A program made the translations under genes and the position numbers. From positions 531,713 through 595,712 of the forward strand of contig NZ_FCOU01000003.1 in assembly GCF_900046475.1 (NCBI RefSeq): a stretch of DNA of 64,000 bases, read 5' to 3'. The stretch comes from Collinsella ihumii. GTDB lineage: Bacteria; Actinomycetota; Coriobacteriia; Coriobacteriales; Coriobacteriaceae. Of this stretch, positions 16,696 through 26,827 are shown one piece after another (within the stretch, counting starts at the first letter, position 1; each line of letters opens with the position of its first letter). The notes beneath the pieces were generated by a model that was not told the DNA's origin, did not search any database, and saw nothing but the letters and a program-made list of their open reading frames with translations.

Positions 16696-18126
16696 CTACA
16701 TCAGGTCCTCGATCTGCATGGCCTCCTTGGGAAAGCGCACCGTGATGGTTGTTCCCTCCCCCAGCGTGCTGTCGACCGAGATCGTTGCATCGTGGAACAT
16801 GGCGGCATGCTTGACGATGGCGAGCCCCAGCCCGGTGCCGCCGCGCGCCTTGGAGCGGCTCTTGTCCACCCGGTAGAAGCGCTCGAAGATCTTGTCCTGC
16901 TCCTCCGGAGCGATACCGATGCCGGTGTCCTCCACGCTGACATAGGGGGCGCCGTCCTCCATGCCGCAGCGCAGCGTGACCGAGCCGTGGGGTTTGTTAT
17001 AGCGGATGGCGTTGCTCGCCAGGTTGTACACCAGCTCGTCGAGCAGACGCGGCACGCCGAACACGATAGCCGGCTCGACGCGCAGCTGCAGCGTAATGCC
17101 GTTGACATCCGCGACGGTATCGAGACGGTGGTACACGGTGTCGATCGTGCGCGGCAGGTCGACCGGCTCGCGCGAACCCAGCACGCTGTTGGACACCTCG
17201 GCGTCGCCGCGCTCCGCCTCGTCGAGGCTCGACAAGGTCAGGATATCGTTGACGAGCGCCGTCAGGCGACCGGCCTCCTTGTGGATGCGGCGGGCGAAAT
17301 CGCGCTGATCCTCCTCATCGGCAACCATGCCGCTCGCGATCAGCTCGGCGTATCCCGAAATCGCCGTCAACGGCGTCTTCAGCTCATGCGTGATGTTGGC
17401 CGTGAACTCGCGGCGCATCCGGTCGTTGTCCGCCAGGACGCGCATCTGGCGCTTGAGCTCCTGGCGCTGCGTCTCGATCCGGTCGAGCATCGGGATCATC
17501 TCGCTGTAGGCATCCTGGATGTTGCGGACGGGATGGTCGAGATCGACTTCGAGCAGCGGCGCGATGATGACACGCGACTCCAGACGCGCGGCCACGACGG
17601 ACACGATCACGCCGAGCGCCACAAGGCCGAGCAGAGGCGGCATCATGCCGACCAGAATAGACAGGTATCCATCCTGCTCCTGCGCGAGGCGCAAAACCGC
17701 ACCGTTATCCAGGCGGACCGCCTCGTAGAGCATGATTTCGCCGAGCGTGGAGCTCGAGCGCTCAGAATCGCCGCGTCCGGTCTCGAACGCCTCGACGACC
17801 TCGGGCCGGCTGGCATGGTTGGGCATGTCCTCCACGTCCGCCTCGCTGTCGAACAGCACGGTGCCGTCGGTGTCGATCAGCGTGATGCGCGTATTGCTCA
17901 AGTCGAGGTGGTTCAGCAGGAACTTGTCGTCGGGCATGCTGTTGAGCGCCGCCGCCACGACGTCGGACTGGTTGTCGAGCTCCTCGTGCGCCAAAGTCAC
18001 CAACCTGCCCTGCACGTAGGCGGTGCCGGCGAGCGAGAACACGACCACGACGAGCATGGCCACCGCGAACACGGTGGCGAACACACGGCGGGACAGGGAA
18101 TGATGCGTGCTGTTTTTAGGCGTCAT
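16696..18126 (-). CDS. PhoR-like sensor histidine kinase
   Basis: A 476-residue kinase. TM1 is at about 16-37, an extracytoplasmic sensor at 40-155, TM2 at 156-181, a dimerisation domain with H247 in ITHELKTPL, an N-box around NLASNAIRYN, and G boxes DTGIGIAP and GGTGLGLAIVKHAA. The arrangement matches PhoR-type sensors. It follows the response regulator gene by 27 bases. Proximity to pstB and the phosphonate operon supports phosphate sensing, but the sensor domain alone does not prove it. Confidence 0.85.
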   Translation of the reverse strand: MTPKNSTHHSLSRRVFATVFAVAMLVVVVFSLAGTAYVQGRLVTLAHEELDNQSDVVAAALNSMPDDKFLLNHLDLSNTRITLIDTDGTVLFDSEADVEDMPNHASRPEVVEAFETGRGDSERSSSTLGEIMLYEAVRLDNGAVLRLAQEQDGYLSILVGMMPPLLGLVALGVIVSVVAARLESRVIIAPLLEVDLDHPVRNIQDAYSEMIPMLDRIETQRQELKRQMRVLADNDRMRREFTANITHELKTPLTAISGYAELIASGMVADEEDQRDFARRIHKEAGRLTALVNDILTLSSLDEAERGDAEVSNSVLGSREPVDLPRTIDTVYHRLDTVADVNGITLQLRVEPAIVFGVPRLLDELVYNLASNAIRYNKPHGSVTLRCGMEDGAPYVSVEDTGIGIAPEEQDKIFERFYRVDKSRSKARGGTGLGLAIVKHAAMFHDATISVDSTLGEGTTITVRFPKEAMQIEDLM

Positions 18127-18153: not shown

Positions 18154-18834
18154 TCAGGCCTCTTGGCCGGCGAAGCGATAGCCCACGCCGCGCACGGTCT
18201 CGATGCAGGTGGCGCGGTCGCCAAGCTTCTGGCGCAGCGTCTGGACGTGCACGTCGACGGTACGCGAGCCGCCGTCGAAGTCCCATCCCCACACGCTTTG
18301 CAGCAGGGCCTCGCGCGAGAACACGATGCCGGGCTTGCGCATGAGATACTCGAGCAGGTCGAACTCGCGAAGCGTGAGCTTGACCTCTTCGCCATCGACC
18401 GTCACGCGACGATGGCTGGGCGACAAAACGATGCCGCCGGCGGACAGCACGTCGCTCACCTGCTTGGACATGCCGCCGCGGCGCAGCAGGGCGCGGCAAC
18501 GGCTGGTGAGCTCCATGAGCGAGAACGGCTTGGTGAGGTAATCATCCGCACCGCCATCGAGCGCCACGACCTTATCGAGCTCGGTGTCTTTGGCCGTCAG
18601 CATCATGATGGGCACGGTCGCCGTCTCGGGCATGGCGCGCAGGCGGCGCATGATCTCAAGACCGTCGGTATCGGGAAGCATGATATCGAGAAGGACGGCA
18701 TCGGGAACACGACGGGCCACGGCGGCTTTGAACTCGCTGTCGCACGAAAAGCCTTCCGCCTCGATACCCTGCTGACGCAGGGCATACAGCGTCAGCCCCC
18801 TGATGTTGTCGTCGTCCTCAACGTAATAGATCAT
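18154..18834 (-). CDS. OmpR/PhoP-family response regulator
   Basis: A 226-residue regulator. The receiver has the acidic pocket EDDD at 6-9, phosphoacceptor D50 (AVLLDIMLP) and lysine in MLTAKD. The winged-helix domain includes LTLREFDLLEYLM and RTVDVHVQTLRQKLG. ATG 18834 after GGAGACGCGCG is preferred over an upstream ATG at 18876. It is co-transcribed with the kinase. A role in the Pho regulon is inferred from context. Confidence 0.9.
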   Translation of the reverse strand: MIYYVEDDDNIRGLTLYALRQQGIEAEGFSCDSEFKAAVARRVPDAVLLDIMLPDTDGLEIMRRLRAMPETATVPIMMLTAKDTELDKVVALDGGADDYLTKPFSLMELTSRCRALLRRGGMSKQVSDVLSAGGIVLSPSHRRVTVDGEEVKLTLREFDLLEYLMRKPGIVFSREALLQSVWGWDFDGGSRTVDVHVQTLRQKLGDRATCIETVRGVGYRFAGQEA

Positions 18835-18920
18835 CGCGCGTCTCCGATTTCCGCTGCATTTACGAGTATCATACACCGCCGCGGGAAGAACACGGGTCGC
18901 CGCACCGCGGCGGCAGACAA

Positions 18921-19787
18921 TCAGCCAAAACGACCAGTCAGGTAGTCGGACGTACGGCTATCCTTGGGCGCGCTGAACAGCTCCTCGGTGGGCGCGTGCT
19001 CCACGAGCTCGCCGAGGAGGAAGAACGCCACCGAGTCGGAGATGCGCGACGCCTGCTGCATGTTGTGCGTCACGACCACGAGCGTGTAGTCCTTCTTGAG
19101 CTCCATGGCGAGCTGCTCGACCATGACAGTCGAGATGGGGTCGAGTGCCGAGGTGGGCTCGTCCATCAGCAGGACCTGGGGCTTGACGGCGATGGCGCGC
19201 GCGATGCACAGGCGCTGCTGCTGGCCGCCGGAAAGGCCCAGACCGGACTGCTTGAGCTTGTCTTTGACCTCGTCCCACAGGCCGGCGCCGGTCAGGGACT
19301 CCTCGACGATCTCCTCGAGCTCGGCGTGGTTCTTGATGCCGAGGCCGCGCGGACCGTACGCGACGTTGTCGAAGATGCTCATCGGGAACGGGTTGGGGCG
19401 CTGGAACACCATGCCCACCTGCTGACGCAGACGGGTGACGTTGTAGTCCTGGTAGATATCGTCGCCGTCGAGGGTGATCTTGCCCTCGATGCGACAATCC
19501 TTGACCATGTCGTTCATGCGGTTCAGGCAGCGCAGCAGCGTGGACTTGCCGCAGCCGGACGGACCGATGAACGAGGTGATCTCGCGGTCGCGGATGTCGA
19601 TGGAAACATCCTTCAGCGCCTGATGGTCGCCGTAGTACAGGTCGAGATGCTCGACCGACATGCGAATCGGGTTCTCGGGTTTGGGTGCCTGCGAGGGCAT
19701 CGTGCCCATTTCACGCTTGTGTGCCTCTTCGAGGGCCTGCGCCATCACGTCGGCCGTCGCGGAGCGCTCCTGATCCATTTCGTTCAA
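18921..19787 (-). CDS. pstB: Phosphate ABC transporter ATP-binding protein PstB
   Basis: A 288-residue ATPase with an approximately 40-residue N-terminal extension, then [17 protein letters not shown] typical of PstB. It has Walker [20 protein letters not shown], signature [14 protein letters not shown], Walker [14 protein letters not shown] and switch VVVTHN. The best start is TTG 19787 behind GAGGAGG; ATG 19778 is less well spaced. The partners pstS, pstC, pstA and phoU are not adjacent: upstream is the phn operon's hybrid gene and downstream the two-component system. They must lie elsewhere or be lost. Confidence 0.9.
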
Positions 19788-19906
19788 CCCGCTACCTCCT
19801 CAAGCAAGCTGTCATAGCTCGCTCTAGGATACGAGCCGCGTTTCATGCAGCTGAAAGCGAATTGTCAGGGAACTGTAAGCTGCCTGCCGGATCCGCCCGG
19901 CGTCCC

Positions 19907-20644
19907 TCACGCGTCGGGCAGGGTGATGGTGAACACGGTGTGCTCCGGCGTGGACTCGCAGGCGATGTTTCCGCCATGCGCCACGACGATCTCCTTGGCG
20001 ATCGCCAGGCCCAGGCCCGCGCCGCCGCGATTCGTCGCGCGTGCCGCGTCCAGGCGGTAGAACTTCTCGAAAATGACCTTGAGCTTCGGCGCCGGGATGG
20101 GGTCGCCCTGGTTCTCGAACCGGATATGCACCTCGGCATCCACGCGCTCGGCCGAGATGAGTATCGTCGAGCCCTCGTAGCTGTACGCGATCGCGTTCTT
20201 CATGACGTTGTTGAACACGCGCGCCATCTTGTCGCCATCCACGAGCACCGTGAGCCCTGTGGGCACCTCGATCCGCGCATGCTTGTCCTGCTCGGTCAGT
20301 GTGGGATAGAACTCGTCGACGACCTGCGCGAGCAGGCGGGCGCGCTCGACAAGGCGGGCGCCCAGCCCGGCCCCACGCTCGCCCGCAGAGACGATGAGCT
20401 CAAGGATCTCCGCCGTCGGACGCGCATGATGAATATGGTGATCGATGCGCAGGTTGAGATACCCGGCCACGCGCCCGTCCACCTCGAGCACCAGACAGTG
20501 CACGGCAGGATCGGAAAGCTGCGACGCAAAGGACCGAAAGAACGCGTCGTAGACGAACTGCTGGCCTTCAAGCTCGCATACCAACCGATAAATCGACGGC
20601 GCGTCGTCCTCGCGCGCCATGCGGATATCCCAGGCCTCGCCCAT
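19907..20644 (-). CDS. Hybrid gene: truncated GNAT acetyltransferase joined to a VanS-like kinase ATPase domain
   Basis: An open frame of 245 residues made of two unrelated parts. Residues 5-102 are a GNAT fold (MAREDDAPSIYRLVCELEG, GRVAGYLNL, acetyl-CoA loop ERGAGLGARLVE) that stops before the last strands. By position at the end of a phn operon it looks like PhnO, the aminoalkylphosphonate acetyltransferase. From about 103 it is a histidine-kinase catalytic domain of VanS type (DEFYPTL, RVFNNVMKNAIAYS, IFEKFYRLD, GGAGLGLAIAKEI) without sensor, membrane, HAMP or His domain. Start 20644 follows GGGGAGGTG. Probably an in-frame deletion scar; a functional fusion cannot be excluded. Confidence 0.8.
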   Translation of the reverse strand: MGEAWDIRMAREDDAPSIYRLVCELEGQQFVYDAFFRSFASQLSDPAVHCLVLEVDGRVAGYLNLRIDHHIHHARPTAEILELIVSAGERGAGLGARLVERARLLAQVVDEFYPTLTEQDKHARIEVPTGLTVLVDGDKMARVFNNVMKNAIAYSYEGSTILISAERVDAEVHIRFENQGDPIPAPKLKVIFEKFYRLDAARATNRGGAGLGLAIAKEIVVAHGGNIACESTPEHTVFTITLPDA

Positions 20645-20683: not shown

Positions 20684-21433
20684 CTAGCGCATCTCGCCGG
20701 CCTGCATATTGTACTCGCGGTCGCAGACGCCTTCCATGAACTCAAGGTCATGGAAGATGCCGAGCATCGTGGTGCCGCCTTCCTTGAGCTGCTCGATCAG
20801 ATCGCGGACCTTGACCTTGCTCGCGTTGTCCAGGCTCGCCGTCGGCTCATCGAGCAGCAGCAGGCGCGGACGGCGCACCATGGCGCGGGCGATGTTCAGG
20901 CGCAGCTTCTCGCCGCCGGAGAAGGTGTTGGGATACAGATCCCACAGCTCGCGGGGAAAATCGAAATGCTCGAGCATGCGCACGGTCTCGGACTCGATCA
21001 CCCGCGGGTCGTCGAACGCCTCGGCGGCGCTCGCCTCCACGATCTCGCGCGCCGTGGTGCGCGGCACGCAATCGAGGAACTGGGAGATGTAGCCGATCTC
21101 GTAATTGCGCAGGTAGATGACGCGGCGCTCATCAAGCCGCGCAAGGTCGACCATTCCGAACGCGGCCGAGTCGTACCAGATGGAGCCGGTCTCGGGCAGA
21201 TTCGTGCGGTAGATGCACTTGAGGATCGTGGACTTGCCCGAACCGGAGCGGCCGGTGATGCCCACGAACTCGCCGGGGGCGATGGAAAGCGAGATGCGCT
21301 CGCAGCCGCGCACGCGGCGGTCGGCGGCGTGCAGGGTAAAGCCCTTCGACAGGTCCTGGATGTCGAGCATGGGGCGCACGGCGTCAGCGGGCGCCGGAGC
21401 CTCGCCGGAAACGGCAACCGAGCTGATATTCAT
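20684..21433 (-). CDS. phnL: C-P lyase system protein PhnL
   Basis: A 249-residue ABC-type ATPase with Walker A GRSGSGKSTILKCIYRTNLP, signature FSGGEKLRLNIARA, Walker B LLLLDEPTAS and switch IFHD. The YRTNLPETGSIWY and RNYEIGYISQFL stretches are typical of PhnL. In the family it works with PhnGHI to attach phosphonate to ATP with loss of adenine. It starts directly after the phnM stop with GGAGGTGCG as ribosome site. Confidence 0.92.
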   Translation of the reverse strand: MNISSVAVSGEAPAPADAVRPMLDIQDLSKGFTLHAADRRVRGCERISLSIAPGEFVGITGRSGSGKSTILKCIYRTNLPETGSIWYDSAAFGMVDLARLDERRVIYLRNYEIGYISQFLDCVPRTTAREIVEASAAEAFDDPRVIESETVRMLEHFDFPRELWDLYPNTFSGGEKLRLNIARAMVRRPRLLLLDEPTASLDNASKVKVRDLIEQLKEGGTTMLGIFHDLEFMEGVCDREYNMQAGEMR

Positions 21434-22708
21434 CTAGCGCACCTCCAGATCGGTCACGGTCTCCTCGAGCGTCGCCGCGTCGACGGCGAAGCGCGCCGAC
21501 ATGGACGGCAGGGCGGGGTACCACATGCGGCTCACCACGCGGCCGTCGACCAGCGTCGCCGTGATGACCGGATAGGAGCGCTGGCCCTCCTCGACCTCGC
21601 GCACCACCAGGATGTCGGCCTTCTTGCCCTCCTCGAGGCTGCCCAGCATGCCGTCGATCTTGACCGCGCGGGCGGGATTGATGGTGAGCATGGCGAACGC
21701 CTGCTCGAGCGGCAGCTTGAAGTCGCGGTGCAGCACGAACGCGCTTTGGAGCATGGCCGTGGGATAGTAGTCCGAGCACAGGCAGCGGGCCACGCCGGCG
21801 CGCACCGCGTCGCGCGCGGACAGGTTGCCCGAATGGCTCTTGCCGAGCAGGATGTTCGGGGTGCCCATGACCGTGAACATGCCGCGCTCGACCGCGGCGG
21901 CGGCGACCTCCTGCGAGATGGGGAACTCGGAGATCGTGCAGCCGAGCTCGCGCATGAGATCGAGCTTGTCGATCGAGTCGTCATCGTGGCTCGCCAGCGC
22001 GATGCCCTGCTCGCGCGCGATGCCGGCGAGGTAGCTGAGCTGCTCGTAGCTCAGCTTGGGCGCGGCCTGGGCGTCGGCCGCCATGGCGGCGGCTTCCTGC
22101 TCGGAGAGCGACTTGCCGCGGAACGACTTGCGCCAGATCTCCATGTCGCGGTACTGGCCCTGGCCGGGCGTGTGGTCCATGAAGGAGAGCTCGTCGATCT
22201 CGCCGGCGCGCAGGTGGTGCTCGACCTGCTCGACCAGATTGACGTTATCGATCTCCAGACGCAGGTGCAGGCGGTGGCGGATCAGATGGGCGTTGCGGCC
22301 CTCGGTGCGCTTGGCGCGCGAGATGAGCGCCATGATCTGCTCGGTGCGGTCCCACTGGCGCACCGGCTTGACGTCCATCTTGTCGTTGCCGTACACCGAA
22401 AGGGAGTGGAACATCGTCGTGATGCCGTGAGCGAGCAGCTCGCGCTCGGCCTCGAACAGCGCGGTCGGGAAATCCATCAGCACCGTCGGGCGCGGTGAGA
22501 TCACCGTCTCGATGTAGTCGGAATGGATATCGATGAGACCGGGCACCACGTAGCCCCCGTGCGCATCGATGATACCGGCACCTGCCGCTTCGGCGTCGAG
22601 CGCCCCTTGGCGCTGGATCGCCTCGATGCGGTCCTCGACCACCACGAGCTCGTAGCCGAACAGCAGCCGATCGGGCTGCACGATGATTCCGTTGCGAATG
22701 ACGTACAA
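21434..22708 (-). CDS. phnM: Alpha-D-ribose 1-methylphosphonate 5-triphosphate diphosphatase PhnM
   Basis: A 424-residue amidohydrolase-fold enzyme. It has IDAHGGYVVPGLIDIHSDYIE at the metal site, a carboxylated-lysine region, LASHDDDS and LCSDYYP. In the pathway it releases pyrophosphate from ribose alkylphosphonate triphosphate. TTG 22708 is chosen because AAGGAGG stands 7 bases before it; the open frame runs on to 22753 without a ribosome site. In E. coli phnM follows phnL; here phnM precedes phnL. Confidence 0.92.
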   Translation of the reverse strand: MYVIRNGIIVQPDRLLFGYELVVVEDRIEAIQRQGALDAEAAGAGIIDAHGGYVVPGLIDIHSDYIETVISPRPTVLMDFPTALFEAERELLAHGITTMFHSLSVYGNDKMDVKPVRQWDRTEQIMALISRAKRTEGRNAHLIRHRLHLRLEIDNVNLVEQVEHHLRAGEIDELSFMDHTPGQGQYRDMEIWRKSFRGKSLSEQEAAAMAADAQAAPKLSYEQLSYLAGIAREQGIALASHDDDSIDKLDLMRELGCTISEFPISQEVAAAAVERGMFTVMGTPNILLGKSHSGNLSARDAVRAGVARCLCSDYYPTAMLQSAFVLHRDFKLPLEQAFAMLTINPARAVKIDGMLGSLEEGKKADILVVREVEEGQRSYPVITATLVDGRVVSRMWYPALPSMSARFAVDAATLEETVTDLEVR

Positions 22709-22740
22709 GGAACGACCTCCTTGGATCGCGTGATACGTTT

Positions 22741-22791
22741 GGGACGGGTTCAAAACGCGTCAGGCGCGCCGTCTGCCCCAGAACCCGTCCC
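22741..22791. repeat. Inverted repeat with GGGACGGGTTC arms inside the phn operon
   Basis: Arms 22741-22751 (GGGACGGGTTC) and 22781-22791 (GAACCCGTCCC) flank 29 bases between phnK and phnM. The arm matches the core of the type B spacer element. It could act as an intercistronic mRNA structure. Confidence 0.6.
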
Positions 22792-22810: not shown

Positions 22811-23692
22811 TTACAGCAGGGAATAGACGAGCTCCTGCGTGTACGCGTGCTGCGGGTCCTGCATGATCTGATCGGTGAGGCCGTGCTCGATGACCTGGCC
22901 GTCGAGCATGACGATCGTGCGATCCGCGAGCAGGCGGATCACGCCCAGGTCATGGCTGACCACGACCATCGACACGCCCAGGTCGCGGCGCAGCTGCAAG
23001 ATCAGGTCGAGCACGCGCGCCTGAACCGACAGGTCCAGACCCGTGGTCACCTCGTCCAAGAACAGCATCGGCGGCTCGTTGGAGAGCGCCTTGGCGATCT
23101 GAACGCGCTGCTGCATACCGCCGGAAAACGCACGGGGCGGATCCTGCTTGCGCCGCAGGGGGATCTTCACGCGCTCGAGCAGCTCCTCGCCGCGCCTCAC
23201 CATGTGGTGCACGTCGCGCACGCCTGCCGCGATCTGCTTCTCGGCGATGTTGGAGAGGCTCGAGAAATTCATGCGCAGACCCAGGTAGGGATTCTGGTAG
23301 ACCATGCCGAAGATCCGGTCGCGGATGTAGCGCTGCTGCTGGCGCGACACGTCGAAGCAGTTCGCGGCGCCCCCGTCGAACGCGGCCACGCGCATATCGC
23401 CCTCAGTCGGGTCCTGGTCGAAGTAGAGGCACTGCATGAGCGTCGACTTGCCGGAGCCCGACTCGCCCACGATGCCCAGGATCTCGCCGGGATGCACCTC
23501 GAGCGACACGTTGCGAACCGCGTGCACCGTACCGCACACGGGGCAGATGTTGCGCTCGAGCTCGGCACGTGGATCGGCGCAATACGGGCAGCCGGCGCCG
23601 AAGCGCTTGGAGAGCCCGCACACCTTGAGCACGGGCGCATCATCGCAAAAGACGTGCTCGACGGGCACGGGAGTTGTCTGTGGCGTCACCAT
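22811..23692 (-). CDS. phnK: C-P lyase system protein PhnK
   Basis: A 293-residue ABC-type ATPase with Walker [18 protein letters not shown], signature FSGGMQQRVQIAKAL, Walker B FLDEVTTGLD and switch VSHD. PhnK binds the PhnGHIJ core complex. An insertion near the N-terminus carries four cysteines (C35, C38, C50, C53: GCPYC and CPVCGTV), which looks like a zinc ribbon and is absent from E. coli PhnK. ATG 23692 lies four bases after the phnJ stop. Confidence 0.92.
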   Translation of the reverse strand: MVTPQTTPVPVEHVFCDDAPVLKVCGLSKRFGAGCPYCADPRAELERNICPVCGTVHAVRNVSLEVHPGEILGIVGESGSGKSTLMQCLYFDQDPTEGDMRVAAFDGGAANCFDVSRQQQRYIRDRIFGMVYQNPYLGLRMNFSSLSNIAEKQIAAGVRDVHHMVRRGEELLERVKIPLRRKQDPPRAFSGGMQQRVQIAKALSNEPPMLFLDEVTTGLDLSVQARVLDLILQLRRDLGVSMVVVSHDLGVIRLLADRTIVMLDGQVIEHGLTDQIMQDPQHAYTQELVYSLL

Positions 23693-23696
23693 GGTC

Positions 23697-24545
23697 TCAC
23701 GCCTCGCTTTCTTGTTCGGCGGCATGCTGCGCGCAGAAATCGGTGTCGGAGCACTGCCACACCTGCTCACCGGTTACAGGGTCGACGGTCTGGGTGAGGT
23801 ACACGCCCGTCGCCCCGCACACATGGCAGCTCGCGCCCTCGAACTCCTCGGTCACGAAGGGATAGTCATCAAAGGCGAGCGACTCGACATGGGTGTAGGG
23901 CGGCACCGCGTAGATTTTCTTCTCGCGTCCGGCACCCAGCAGCGTGAGGTTCTCGGCCATGTTGAGCTTGGCGTTGTCGTAACGGGGAATGGGGCTCGGC
24001 GCCATGACGTAGCGCCCCTCGACCATCACGGGATGGTCGGCGCCCGTGGTCGTGGTGCCGTAGCGCACGATCTGCTCGAACAGCTCCAGATAGGCACCGG
24101 TGTACTCCGCCTCGGCGTGCAGGCGCTTGGTCACCGTCTCGCGCGCCTCGTAGGTGCGCAGCGGCTCGGGCGTGGGAACCTGCAGCACAAGCAGCTGGTC
24201 GCGGGTGAGCGGGCGCTCGGGGATACGGTGGCGGCTCTGGATGAGCGTGGCGTCCTGCGTGGCCGTCGTGGTGTCCACGCCGGTTGTCTCGTGGACGAGG
24301 CCGCGAATCGACACGGCGTTCACGCTCGCGTCGGAGCCCTGGTCGATGACCTTGAGGACGTCATCCGGCCCGATGCACGAGAGCGTCAGCTGCAGGCCGC
24401 CCGTGCCCCAGCCGCGCCCGATGGGCATCTCGCGGCTCGCGAACGGCACCTGGTAGCCGGGAATCGCCACGCCCTTGAGGATGGCGCGACGGATCTCGCG
24501 CTTGGAGCCCTCGTCCAAGAAGGCGAAGTTGTAGTTCTTACGCAT
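23697..24545 (-). CDS. phnJ: Alpha-D-ribose 1-methylphosphonate 5-phosphate C-P lyase PhnJ
   Basis: A 282-residue radical-SAM C-P lyase. The unusual cluster C240-X2-C243-X21-C265-X5-C271 matches the family spacing exactly and sits one residue earlier than in E. coli. The N-terminal glycine-rich stretch MPIGRGWGTGG holds the glycine expected to form the radical. It cleaves the carbon-phosphorus bond, giving methane or another alkane and ribose cyclic phosphate. Start 24545 overlaps the phnI end by 8 bases. All key residues are present. Confidence 0.95.
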   Translation of the reverse strand: MRKNYNFAFLDEGSKREIRRAILKGVAIPGYQVPFASREMPIGRGWGTGGLQLTLSCIGPDDVLKVIDQGSDASVNAVSIRGLVHETTGVDTTTATQDATLIQSRHRIPERPLTRDQLLVLQVPTPEPLRTYEARETVTKRLHAEAEYTGAYLELFEQIVRYGTTTTGADHPVMVEGRYVMAPSPIPRYDNAKLNMAENLTLLGAGREKKIYAVPPYTHVESLAFDDYPFVTEEFEGASCHVCGATGVYLTQTVDPVTGEQVWQCSDTDFCAQHAAEQESEA

Positions 24546-25668
24546 CGGCCTCGCCTCCCTTCTCGGCAACAGAGCGCAGCGCCGAGTCGAGCTTGCTCTG
24601 GAACGTCACGTAATGGGGCAGCTTGAGATGGGAGATGAAGCCGGTCGCCTCGACGCCGTCGATGTGGTAGAGGACGAACTCCTGGTCCTGCGTGGGGAAT
24701 CGCACGTCGTCCGCCCGCAGGCTGTGGTCGAGCACGCTCATGGCGATGGCCTTGCTCTCATCGGTGCCCACCACCAGACCGTAGCCCACGTCGAGCGCCG
24801 AGCGGTGCTCGCCCTGCTCGTCCACCTCGTCGGCCACGATCAGGCTCTCGACCTCGGTCACCGGGATGGAGCCCAGGTAATAGGCGTCCTCCGCCGGCGC
24901 GTCGGCCACGGCGCCGGGTGCGTCGATCTCGACGGCGACCGAACCGCGGCGCAGCTCGCCCACCGTGGGGTGCGACAGGCCGAAACCGCGAATCGCCGCG
25001 TAGCCGATCGCGATGACCGCCTGCGTGAGGCCGCGCGACAGAGCCTGCAGGATCACGCTGCGCGGCGCGGGAAACGACAGCGGGGTCTTGGTGATGTCGA
25101 CCGGCTCGGTGTCGTCGACCGGCCAGTCGCGCACCATGTCGATGGAGCGCAGGTAGGTCAGCACGCGGGGCACGCGGGCAAGCGCGTCGGGGGTAGCAGG
25201 CACGGCGGTGTCGGCCAGGCGCTCCGCCAGCTCGCGCGCCCGGTCGCGCACCGAGGCCTGCGTCTCGTCGGCCAGCTCGAACTCGATGAGACGATGCGAG
25301 TAATCGCGCGTGGCGCCGAGGATCTGGCCGCCCTCGATGTCCTTGAACGCAGCGGAGATGCGGCGGTCGACGCGCATCTCGTCGGTGTCGATCACGCGCG
25401 AGGTGTAGAGCCGCTCAAGCGTGGAGCGGTAGGCGCGCATGAGGAACACCGCTTCTTCCACCGATCCGCACGCCTGCTTGACGGCGGTCGCCGCGACCTC
25501 GGGCGCCCACAGCGAGCCCTCGGATTCCACCTGCTGAACCAATTCGGGCAGGCAGGACAAGATGGTGTCCACGTCGAGCGCGAGCCCGCCGGCCACGCGC
25601 TTGCGTTCGATGAGGTCGAGCGAGGTCGCGATGGCCTGCTCGCCTCCGGTCACCGCTACATACCCCAT
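24538..25668 (-). CDS. phnI: C-P lyase core complex protein PhnI
   Basis: A 376-residue protein beginning MGYVAVTGGEQAIATSLDLI, diagnostic of PhnI. In the family it is the nucleosidase subunit that exchanges adenine of ATP for the phosphonate, working with PhnG, PhnH and PhnL. It overlaps phnH by 13 bases and phnJ by 8, so the core genes are translationally coupled. Confidence 0.95.
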   Translation of the reverse strand: MGYVAVTGGEQAIATSLDLIERKRVAGGLALDVDTILSCLPELVQQVESEGSLWAPEVAATAVKQACGSVEEAVFLMRAYRSTLERLYTSRVIDTDEMRVDRRISAAFKDIEGGQILGATRDYSHRLIEFELADETQASVRDRARELAERLADTAVPATPDALARVPRVLTYLRSIDMVRDWPVDDTEPVDITKTPLSFPAPRSVILQALSRGLTQAVIAIGYAAIRGFGLSHPTVGELRRGSVAVEIDAPGAVADAPAEDAYYLGSIPVTEVESLIVADEVDEQGEHRSALDVGYGLVVGTDESKAIAMSVLDHSLRADDVRFPTQDQEFVLYHIDGVEATGFISHLKLPHYVTFQSKLDSALRSVAEKGGEADA

Positions 25669-26369
25669 GCGGCACCCCCTTCTTCTCGCGCCGCCTCATC
25701 CAGGCGACGGACGCGCGTCGTGCGCGGCAGGCACAGCACGTGGCCGGCCGCATCGACGAAGACCAGGTCGATGCCGCACGGGAACTCGTCGCCGCGCTCG
25801 AGGCGGGCCTCCACGATCTCCGTGCGGTCGAGTTCGATGCGCGCCGCCTCGCGGATGCCGGGGCCGGAAAGCTCCCAAGACGACACGTCCGCCCCGCCGG
25901 CACGCGCGCCCGTGAGGCAGCCGTCGCGGTCGGAGCCGAGCAGCGTGTCGCACACGACGATGCAGGTGGCGCCGAGCTGCGGGTCGAGCAGCGTTCCCGC
26001 AGACAGCGCCGTGACGAACGCCCGCGCCTGTTGCCCGCGAACCGATGCGGGCACGAAGCCGAAGGCCGCCGTCTGGGCATCGCGCATGGCCACATGGGTC
26101 CTGCGGGCGAGCACCGTCGCGGCGACATCCTCCGCGGGTCCCGCCACCGCGACCGATGTCGCCGCATCCAGCACCACATCGGCCAGCACCAGCGCGGACT
26201 CGGGAAGCCCGGAGGCGTCCGCATCCGCCACGTCGCCCTGCGCACGGGCAGCGAGCTCCGTCACCTCTCCGGGACGCGCCATGGCGTCGAGCAGCGCACG
26301 GAACGCGCGCTGCAGATAGAACGCGCGATCGTCGGCAGCGGACTCGCGCTCAAACACCTCGCGCATCAT
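25656..26369 (-). CDS. phnH: C-P lyase core complex protein PhnH
   Basis: A 237-residue protein with the N-terminal QRAFRALLDAMARPGEV motif of PhnH and FPCGIDLVFVDAAGHVLCLPRTTRV near the end. It is a structural subunit of the PhnGHIJ complex. Two adjacent ATG codons (26369, 26366) overlap the phnG stop. Confidence 0.93.
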   Translation of the reverse strand: MMREVFERESAADDRAFYLQRAFRALLDAMARPGEVTELAARAQGDVADADASGLPESALVLADVVLDAATSVAVAGPAEDVAATVLARRTHVAMRDAQTAAFGFVPASVRGQQARAFVTALSAGTLLDPQLGATCIVVCDTLLGSDRDGCLTGARAGGADVSSWELSGPGIREAARIELDRTEIVEARLERGDEFPCGIDLVFVDAAGHVLCLPRTTRVRRLDEAAREEGGAAWGM

Positions 26370-26827
26370 TTCGCCACCGCCTGCACGCTCATATCCTGAC
26401 CGCCCATCTCATCGAAGCTCACGCGCGAGCCCATGACGACTGCCGCCTCCTGCGCGCGACGCCGCTCTAGCTCGCGCCCGGCGTCGTCGATCCTGCGATC
26501 GATCTCGGCCACGACACGCGGCGTCGGCTCGACCGCATAGGCGGCGTCGATGGTCGCCAGGCTGCGCGCGAACGCGCCGTCGGCGCCCAGCACCACGCCG
26601 AGCCCCTCCACATCGCCGATGCGCACGCGGCACTCGCTCATGAGCGCCTCGCCCAGGTAAAACCGGCTGTTGCGCGCCGTCTCGCGCACCTGGTTCATCA
26701 CCAGCCCCTGGCGCGGCGGCACGACCACGCGCACCTCGAGCTCGCGCTCGATGGCACGCGCCGCGTCATGCGCCAGCGCGGGCCCGCTCTCCACGAGGAT
26801 CTCGGTCCTCGCCCGTCTCGATAACAT
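26366..26827 (-). CDS. phnG: C-P lyase core complex protein PhnG
   Basis: A 153-residue small subunit with PPRQGLVMNQVRETARNSRFYLGEALMSEC, characteristic of PhnG. It forms the core with PhnH, PhnI and PhnJ. It begins 63 bases after the second permease gene, starting the catalytic half of the operon. Confidence 0.93.
   Translation of the reverse strand: MLSRRARTEILVESGPALAHDAARAIERELEVRVVVPPRQGLVMNQVRETARNSRFYLGEALMSECRVRIGDVEGLGVVLGADGAFARSLATIDAAYAVEPTPRVVAEIDRRIDDAGRELERRRAQEAAVVMGSRVSFDEMGGQDMSVQAVAK

Follow-up and report, generated by a model that had tools for sequence, protein, structure and literature searches.

A chimeric phnO–vanS-like gene in a Collinsella-like genome, most likely the inactive scar of a single deletion

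Introduction

The last gene of a phn operon in a Collinsella-like genome encodes, in one open frame, the N-terminal part of a PhnO-type GNAT acetyltransferase followed by the CA (HATPase_c) domain of a VanS-type histidine kinase, which raises the question of whether this unusual combination is a working protein or the remnant of a rearrangement. We examined the locus by domain profiles, comparison with related genomes, structure prediction, and estimates of selection. The chimeric ORF is best read as the scar of one deletion in this lineage and is most likely inactive, and we put the probability of this reading at roughly 0.82. The genes that disappeared together with the intervening DNA turned out to be more telling than the chimera itself.

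Layout of the chimeric gene

The source genome consists of 2.84 Mb in 35 contigs and is 98.4% complete. Coordinates without a contig or locus name refer to the window, the whole 64-kb stretch of DNA that was analyzed. The features around the chimeric ORF are as follows.

16696..18126, minus strand: phoR/pnpS-like histidine kinase (profile match)
18154..18876, minus strand: phoB-like response regulator (profile match)
18921..19787, minus strand: pstB, right flank of the deletion; also 3' of the kinase gene in relatives
19907..20644, minus strand: chimeric ORF of 245 aa, PhnO-type GNAT N-terminal part and VanS-type CA (HATPase_c) domain
19907..20334, minus strand: VanS-type CA domain, residues ~104–245; N, F, and G2 boxes kept
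20325..20337, minus strand: deletion junction zone (CGCCTGCTCGCGCAGG)
20338..20644, minus strand: GNAT part, residues 1 to ~102/103; RGAGLG present; no later strands, motif B Tyr, or C-terminus
20684..21433, minus strand: phnL, left flank of the deletion (conserved order; profile match)
21434..22753, minus strand: phnM (profile match)
22811..23770, minus strand: ABC ATPase in the PhnK position (profile match)
23697..24569, minus strand: phnJ, C–P lyase (profile match)
24538..25668, minus strand: phnI (profile match)
25656..26369, minus strand: phnH (profile match)
26366..26827, minus strand: probable phnG, intact ORF (by position and sequence)

The chimeric ORF is real: it starts with ATG, stays open over 738 nt (245 codons), and is preceded by a strong ribosome site, aGGGGAGGtgcgcATG. 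It begins 39 bp past the phnL stop codon and ends 119 bp ahead of pstB. The N-terminal part matches the Pfam Acetyltransf_1 profile only partially (residues 33–102, columns 18–84 of 116), whereas the same profile covers columns 8–116 on the intact PhnO of C. tanakaei An791; the acetyl-CoA pyrophosphate loop (R/QxxGxG/A) is present as RGAGLG at residues ~89–94. The C-terminal part gives a complete match to Pfam HATPase_c (residues 136–244, columns 2–109 of 111) and aligns with the final 146 columns of the NCBIfam VanS profile (residues 98–243, profile 148–293 of 293). It also matches the isolated CA domain of VanSA (PDB 8DVQ) over residues 103–243 with an E-value of 2e-40 and shares 85–90% amino acid identity with the nearest orthologous intact kinases.

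From TGCTCGCGCAGG (20334) onward the kinase similarity is clear, and similarity to PhnO peters out at that spot; the break coincides almost exactly with the N-terminal boundary of the CA domain. A preliminary description of this DNA had put the junction near 20338 (residue 102-103), within a few bases of the zone given above, and the domain matches bear out its statements that the GNAT part ends after the acetyl-CoA loop and that the kinase part is devoid of sensor, membrane, and His domains. A short microhomology of a few bases at the junction is plausible.

Ancestral gene order and the deletion

The nearest relatives of the source genome are C. tanakaei strains and 'Ca. C. stercoripullorum'. 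In C. tanakaei An791 (G049, L041) and 'Ca. C. stercoripullorum' (G013, L028, L029), the genes are arranged as phnL–phnO–PHP–S11 carboxypeptidase–response regulator–kinase–pstB–phoB–phoR, with phnJ-K-M-L ahead of phnO and with the S11 D-Ala-D-Ala carboxypeptidase gene on the opposite strand. The regulator in this interval is of the VanR/OmpR type, and the adjoining VanS-like kinase is full-length. C. tanakaei An368 (G058, L042) keeps the same order (phnO–PHP–carboxypeptidase–kinase–pstB), though without phnJ. Its phn locus (L042:3600-5600) has decayed, leaving a partial phnL, phnO, and the PHP gene, and phnJ is missing from the whole genome. In one alignment, the row L042:8911-9346 was disregarded, its translation being out of frame. 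The window DNA is ~80–88% identical to both sides of the relatives' interval and skips the middle, which amounts to 4.5 kb in An368, 4.8 kb in An791, and 8.8 kb in 'Ca. C. stercoripullorum' (G013). Therefore, the deletion probably removed about 5 kb, a size favored within a range of about 4.5–9 kb that comes from related species.

The intact arrangement at the same locus and between the same flanks in related species supports the earlier proposal that phnO and a kinase gene were brought together by a deletion, and the intact phnO followed by an intact kinase gene and its regulator, by which that proposal was to be checked, is present in An791 and 'Ca. C. stercoripullorum'. The further suggestion that Pst genes were also taken had to be dropped: the relatives' interval holds the genes for the PHP phosphodiesterase, the S11 carboxypeptidase, and the response regulator, and the lone pstB 3' of the kinase gene is the ancestral state. 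Intact pstC- and pstA-like permease genes lie side by side on contig C12.

The deletion that we propose had one end within phnO and the other within the VanS-like kinase gene. It cost phnO its final ~45 codons, removed the genes for a PHP-type cyclic phosphodiesterase (probably PhnPP), the S11 D-Ala-D-Ala carboxypeptidase, and the VanR/OmpR-type regulator, and stripped the kinase gene of its sensor, membrane, and phosphoacceptor part. The frame was kept across the join by chance (about 1/3), and translation of the chimera, now the final product of the phn operon, probably starts from the ribosome site that once served phnO. With half a GNAT fold, this product would be expected to fold poorly; its CA domain may still bind ATP, with neither a histidine to phosphorylate nor a cognate regulator.

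That the ORF is instead an ancient or horizontally acquired two-domain gene with an architecture of its own is hardly tenable. We found no evidence in support of it and no second occurrence, and the synteny refutes it: both halves sit in their ancestral places and each is closest to a separate gene of the sister species.

Fate of the lost genes and distribution of the fusion

When the response regulator and the N-terminal part of the kinase were used as queries against the source genome, only paralogs were found (best match 47%), so that an ortholog of the cognate regulator is missing. The PHP and S11 peptidase queries gave no match in the source genome, and the same queries matched all 44 other genomes of the genus as a positive control; the S11 Pfam model PF00768 likewise found nothing in the source genome. 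These searches reject relocation of the lost genes to elsewhere in the genome.

The lost genes are well kept in the genus. The S11 carboxypeptidase occurs in 44/44 other genomes, and the kinase ortholog is full-length in 42 of the 44, and in 37 of the 42 it sits at most 10 kb away from the S11 gene, as judged from coordinates. The PHP gene is within ~5 kb of phnJ in each of the five other phnJ-positive genomes. In one genome lacking phnJ (G008), a PhnO-like GNAT gene adjoins the S11 carboxypeptidase gene (L030:1493-3238), and the GNAT gene thus persists there without the C–P lyase operon.

The fusion was found in none of the 44 other genus genomes and in none of 55 GTDB loci, and a recurring architecture is thereby rejected. 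Among those searched, the two halves are always separate elsewhere and the source genome alone has them fused, an outcome that the preliminary description had named as speaking against a functional fusion.

An assembler or binner could also have joined phnO to the kinase gene and lost the middle, and the draft state of the assembly as well as a GC-rich junction with possible short microhomology would fit such an error. However, a piece of at least 4.5 kb should have formed a contig of its own, and yet its genes are absent from the assembly despite the completeness given above. Moreover, the junction lies inside a contig of >595 kb, and the two ends carry no long repeat that could cause a collapse. 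We therefore consider an artefact unlikely and regard the chimera as the product of a genuine deletion.

Functional capacity of the two halves

The GNAT domain of the chimera is incomplete by comparison with PhnO. Among the 23 columns that are invariant in 11 intact PhnO-like proteins, 11 fall beyond the junction, and the motif B region HRFYExxGM, including the FY of FYExxGM, likewise lies beyond it and is absent. For reference, the intact An791 PhnO scores 110 bits (1e-31) against NF007530, whose cut-off is 142. In AlphaFold predictions, the intact PhnO reached an overall pLDDT of 91 with its strands in place on a similarly thin alignment, whereas residues 68–102 of the fusion stayed below 50 and beta-4 was not formed; the GNAT rows of the fusion's alignment were truncated, so that this comparison lends support without settling the matter.

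The kinase half is better preserved. The predicted CA model superimposes on the VanSA CA domain with a TM-score of 0.91 (normalized to the target), 1.3 A rmsd, and 46% identity, and in light of this model the CA part may bind ATP. On the other hand, the chimera gives no HisKA profile match, although the intact ortholog does, and the membrane and sensor part is absent because kinase similarity begins only at residue ~104. A working acetyltransferase or kinase function of the chimera is thus unlikely as judged from its sequence and predicted structure, because the GNAT part is defective, HisKA is absent, and the partner regulator is gone. The idea of a functional ATP-binding acetyltransferase-like regulator, with which the preliminary description had ended, finds no footing in a fusion that occurs in no other genome searched and misses the second half of the GNAT fold.

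Selection was estimated for the CA part, the GNAT half being too divergent and short and its bootstrap uninformative. In three-taxon NG86 estimates, which are rough given that dS is high and the method crude, dN/dS of the CA part was 0.07–0.10 on the source branch versus 0.10–0.18 on intact branches, and the fraction of the branch spent under neutrality was estimated at or below 0 (upper 95% limit 0.03–0.10). The CA half carries one unique residue change among seven genomes, and none of the residues conserved in >90% of 47 distinct sequences from related loci is altered. The CA half shows no excess of amino acid change, which fits constraint and recency equally. Without accelerated change, either the deletion is recent or the CA part is still constrained, and both fit a single genome. 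That every phn gene in the window still has an unbroken frame favors a young deletion.

These observations bear on a functional chimera, i.e., a new ATP-binding protein in which the GNAT part serves as a dimerization or ligand platform, perhaps one that disturbs the VanRS-like pair remaining on contig C12. The open frame, the ribosome site, the intact N, F, and G2 boxes, the absence of relaxed evolution in the CA part, and the paralogous VanR/VanS pair beside a VanY carboxypeptidase in the same genome would accord with such a role. We nevertheless judge it quite improbable, since the fusion was found in one genome only, the phosphoacceptor His is missing and the cognate regulator deleted, the GNAT part is predicted to be disordered beyond residue ~67, and recency explains the low divergence equally well. 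A young gene already under selection, encoding a CA-only ATP-binding protein on a GNAT-derived module that is expressed with phn and may act on VanRS-like or PhoR signaling, appears very improbable. Taking these results together, the locus most likely holds a genuine deletion-made chimera that is a non-functional scar and occurs only in this genome among those searched.

Consequences for phosphonate and cell-wall metabolism

PhnO transfers acetyl groups to aminoalkylphosphonates and detoxifies (S)-1-aminoethylphosphonate, an analogue of D-Ala; 2-aminoethylphosphonate can be used without it (PMC3463581, PMC10574752). We infer that PhnO acetylation has been lost in the source strain.

The PHP protein of the relatives follows phnO in both An791 (L041:11056-11955, minus strand) and 'Ca. 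C. stercoripullorum' (L028:10242-11183, plus strand). The deleted protein matches PF02811 above the cut-off and scores 234 bits (2e-69) against NF041661, whose family cut-off is 500; on account of the proximity of its gene to phnJ in all five other phnJ-positive genomes, we take it as a probable PhnPP. PhnPP can take the place of PhnP (PMC8774927), the enzyme that hydrolyses the phosphoribosyl cyclic phosphate; in E. coli phnP strains, ribosyl 1,2-cyclic phosphate (Rib1,2cP) builds up and phosphonate phosphorus becomes unusable (PMC3463581). Replacement of the PHP enzyme by PhnP was rejected, the source genome giving weak metallo-beta-lactamase matches only (26 bits against a cut-off of 272). 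Judging from its gene content, the C–P lyase route would halt at 5-phosphoribosyl 1,2-cyclic phosphate unless another enzyme steps in. Because the C–P lyase operon looks intact while the PHP enzyme and a good PhnP are both absent, the source strain may take up and cleave phosphonates and yet fail to recover the phosphorus. The block is put conditionally because the source genome encodes one 2H-phosphodiesterase-like protein, which could in principle substitute for the PHP enzyme; the 2H family has been discussed for operons without phnP (PMC10574752).

In relatives, a gene on the opposite strand stands between phn and pstB-phoB-phoR. The deletion took this gene as well, so that across 19788-20644 the phn operon might now read through into pstB.

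The VanRS-like circuit of this locus would likewise be lost. A second VanS/VanR-like pair adjoins a gene for a D,D-carboxypeptidase of the VanY type (PF02557) at L111:8501-11300 (C12:194500-197300), and relatives of its kinase, at ~37–43%, occur in only a few other members of the genus. This VanY-type locus might partly cover the cell-wall loss. With the S11 carboxypeptidase and the neighboring VanRS-like pair missing, the strain offers a natural knock-out for probing the role of this conserved Collinsella circuit; together with the late phosphonate enzyme, these losses are what gives the locus its weight.

Comparison with known systems

Like PhnO of E. coli and Salmonella, the chimera occupies the last place in the phn operon and has an N-terminal GNAT sequence with the acetyl-CoA loop, but unlike PhnO it stops after that loop, without the later strands and the motif B Tyr. 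Its second half resembles the CA domains of VanS-type kinases (PDB 8DVQ/8DWZ for VanSA and 8DX0 for VanSC) in having a complete HATPase_c domain with N, F, and G2 boxes; in contrast to these kinases, it has no sensor, membrane, or HisKA domain and no phosphoacceptor His, and its partner regulator gene is deleted. The PHP protein, whose closest known counterpart is PhnPP (NF041661, the PHP-type phosphoribosyl 1,2-cyclic phosphate diphosphodiesterase), is encoded next to phnO in the phn operons of the sister species; its score is under the curated cut-off and its gene is missing from the source genome. As in other deletion-made chimeric genes and pseudogenes of bacteria, two truncated neighbors have been joined in frame after loss of the DNA between them; the kind of event is ordinary, and the notable part here is the set of genes that was lost.
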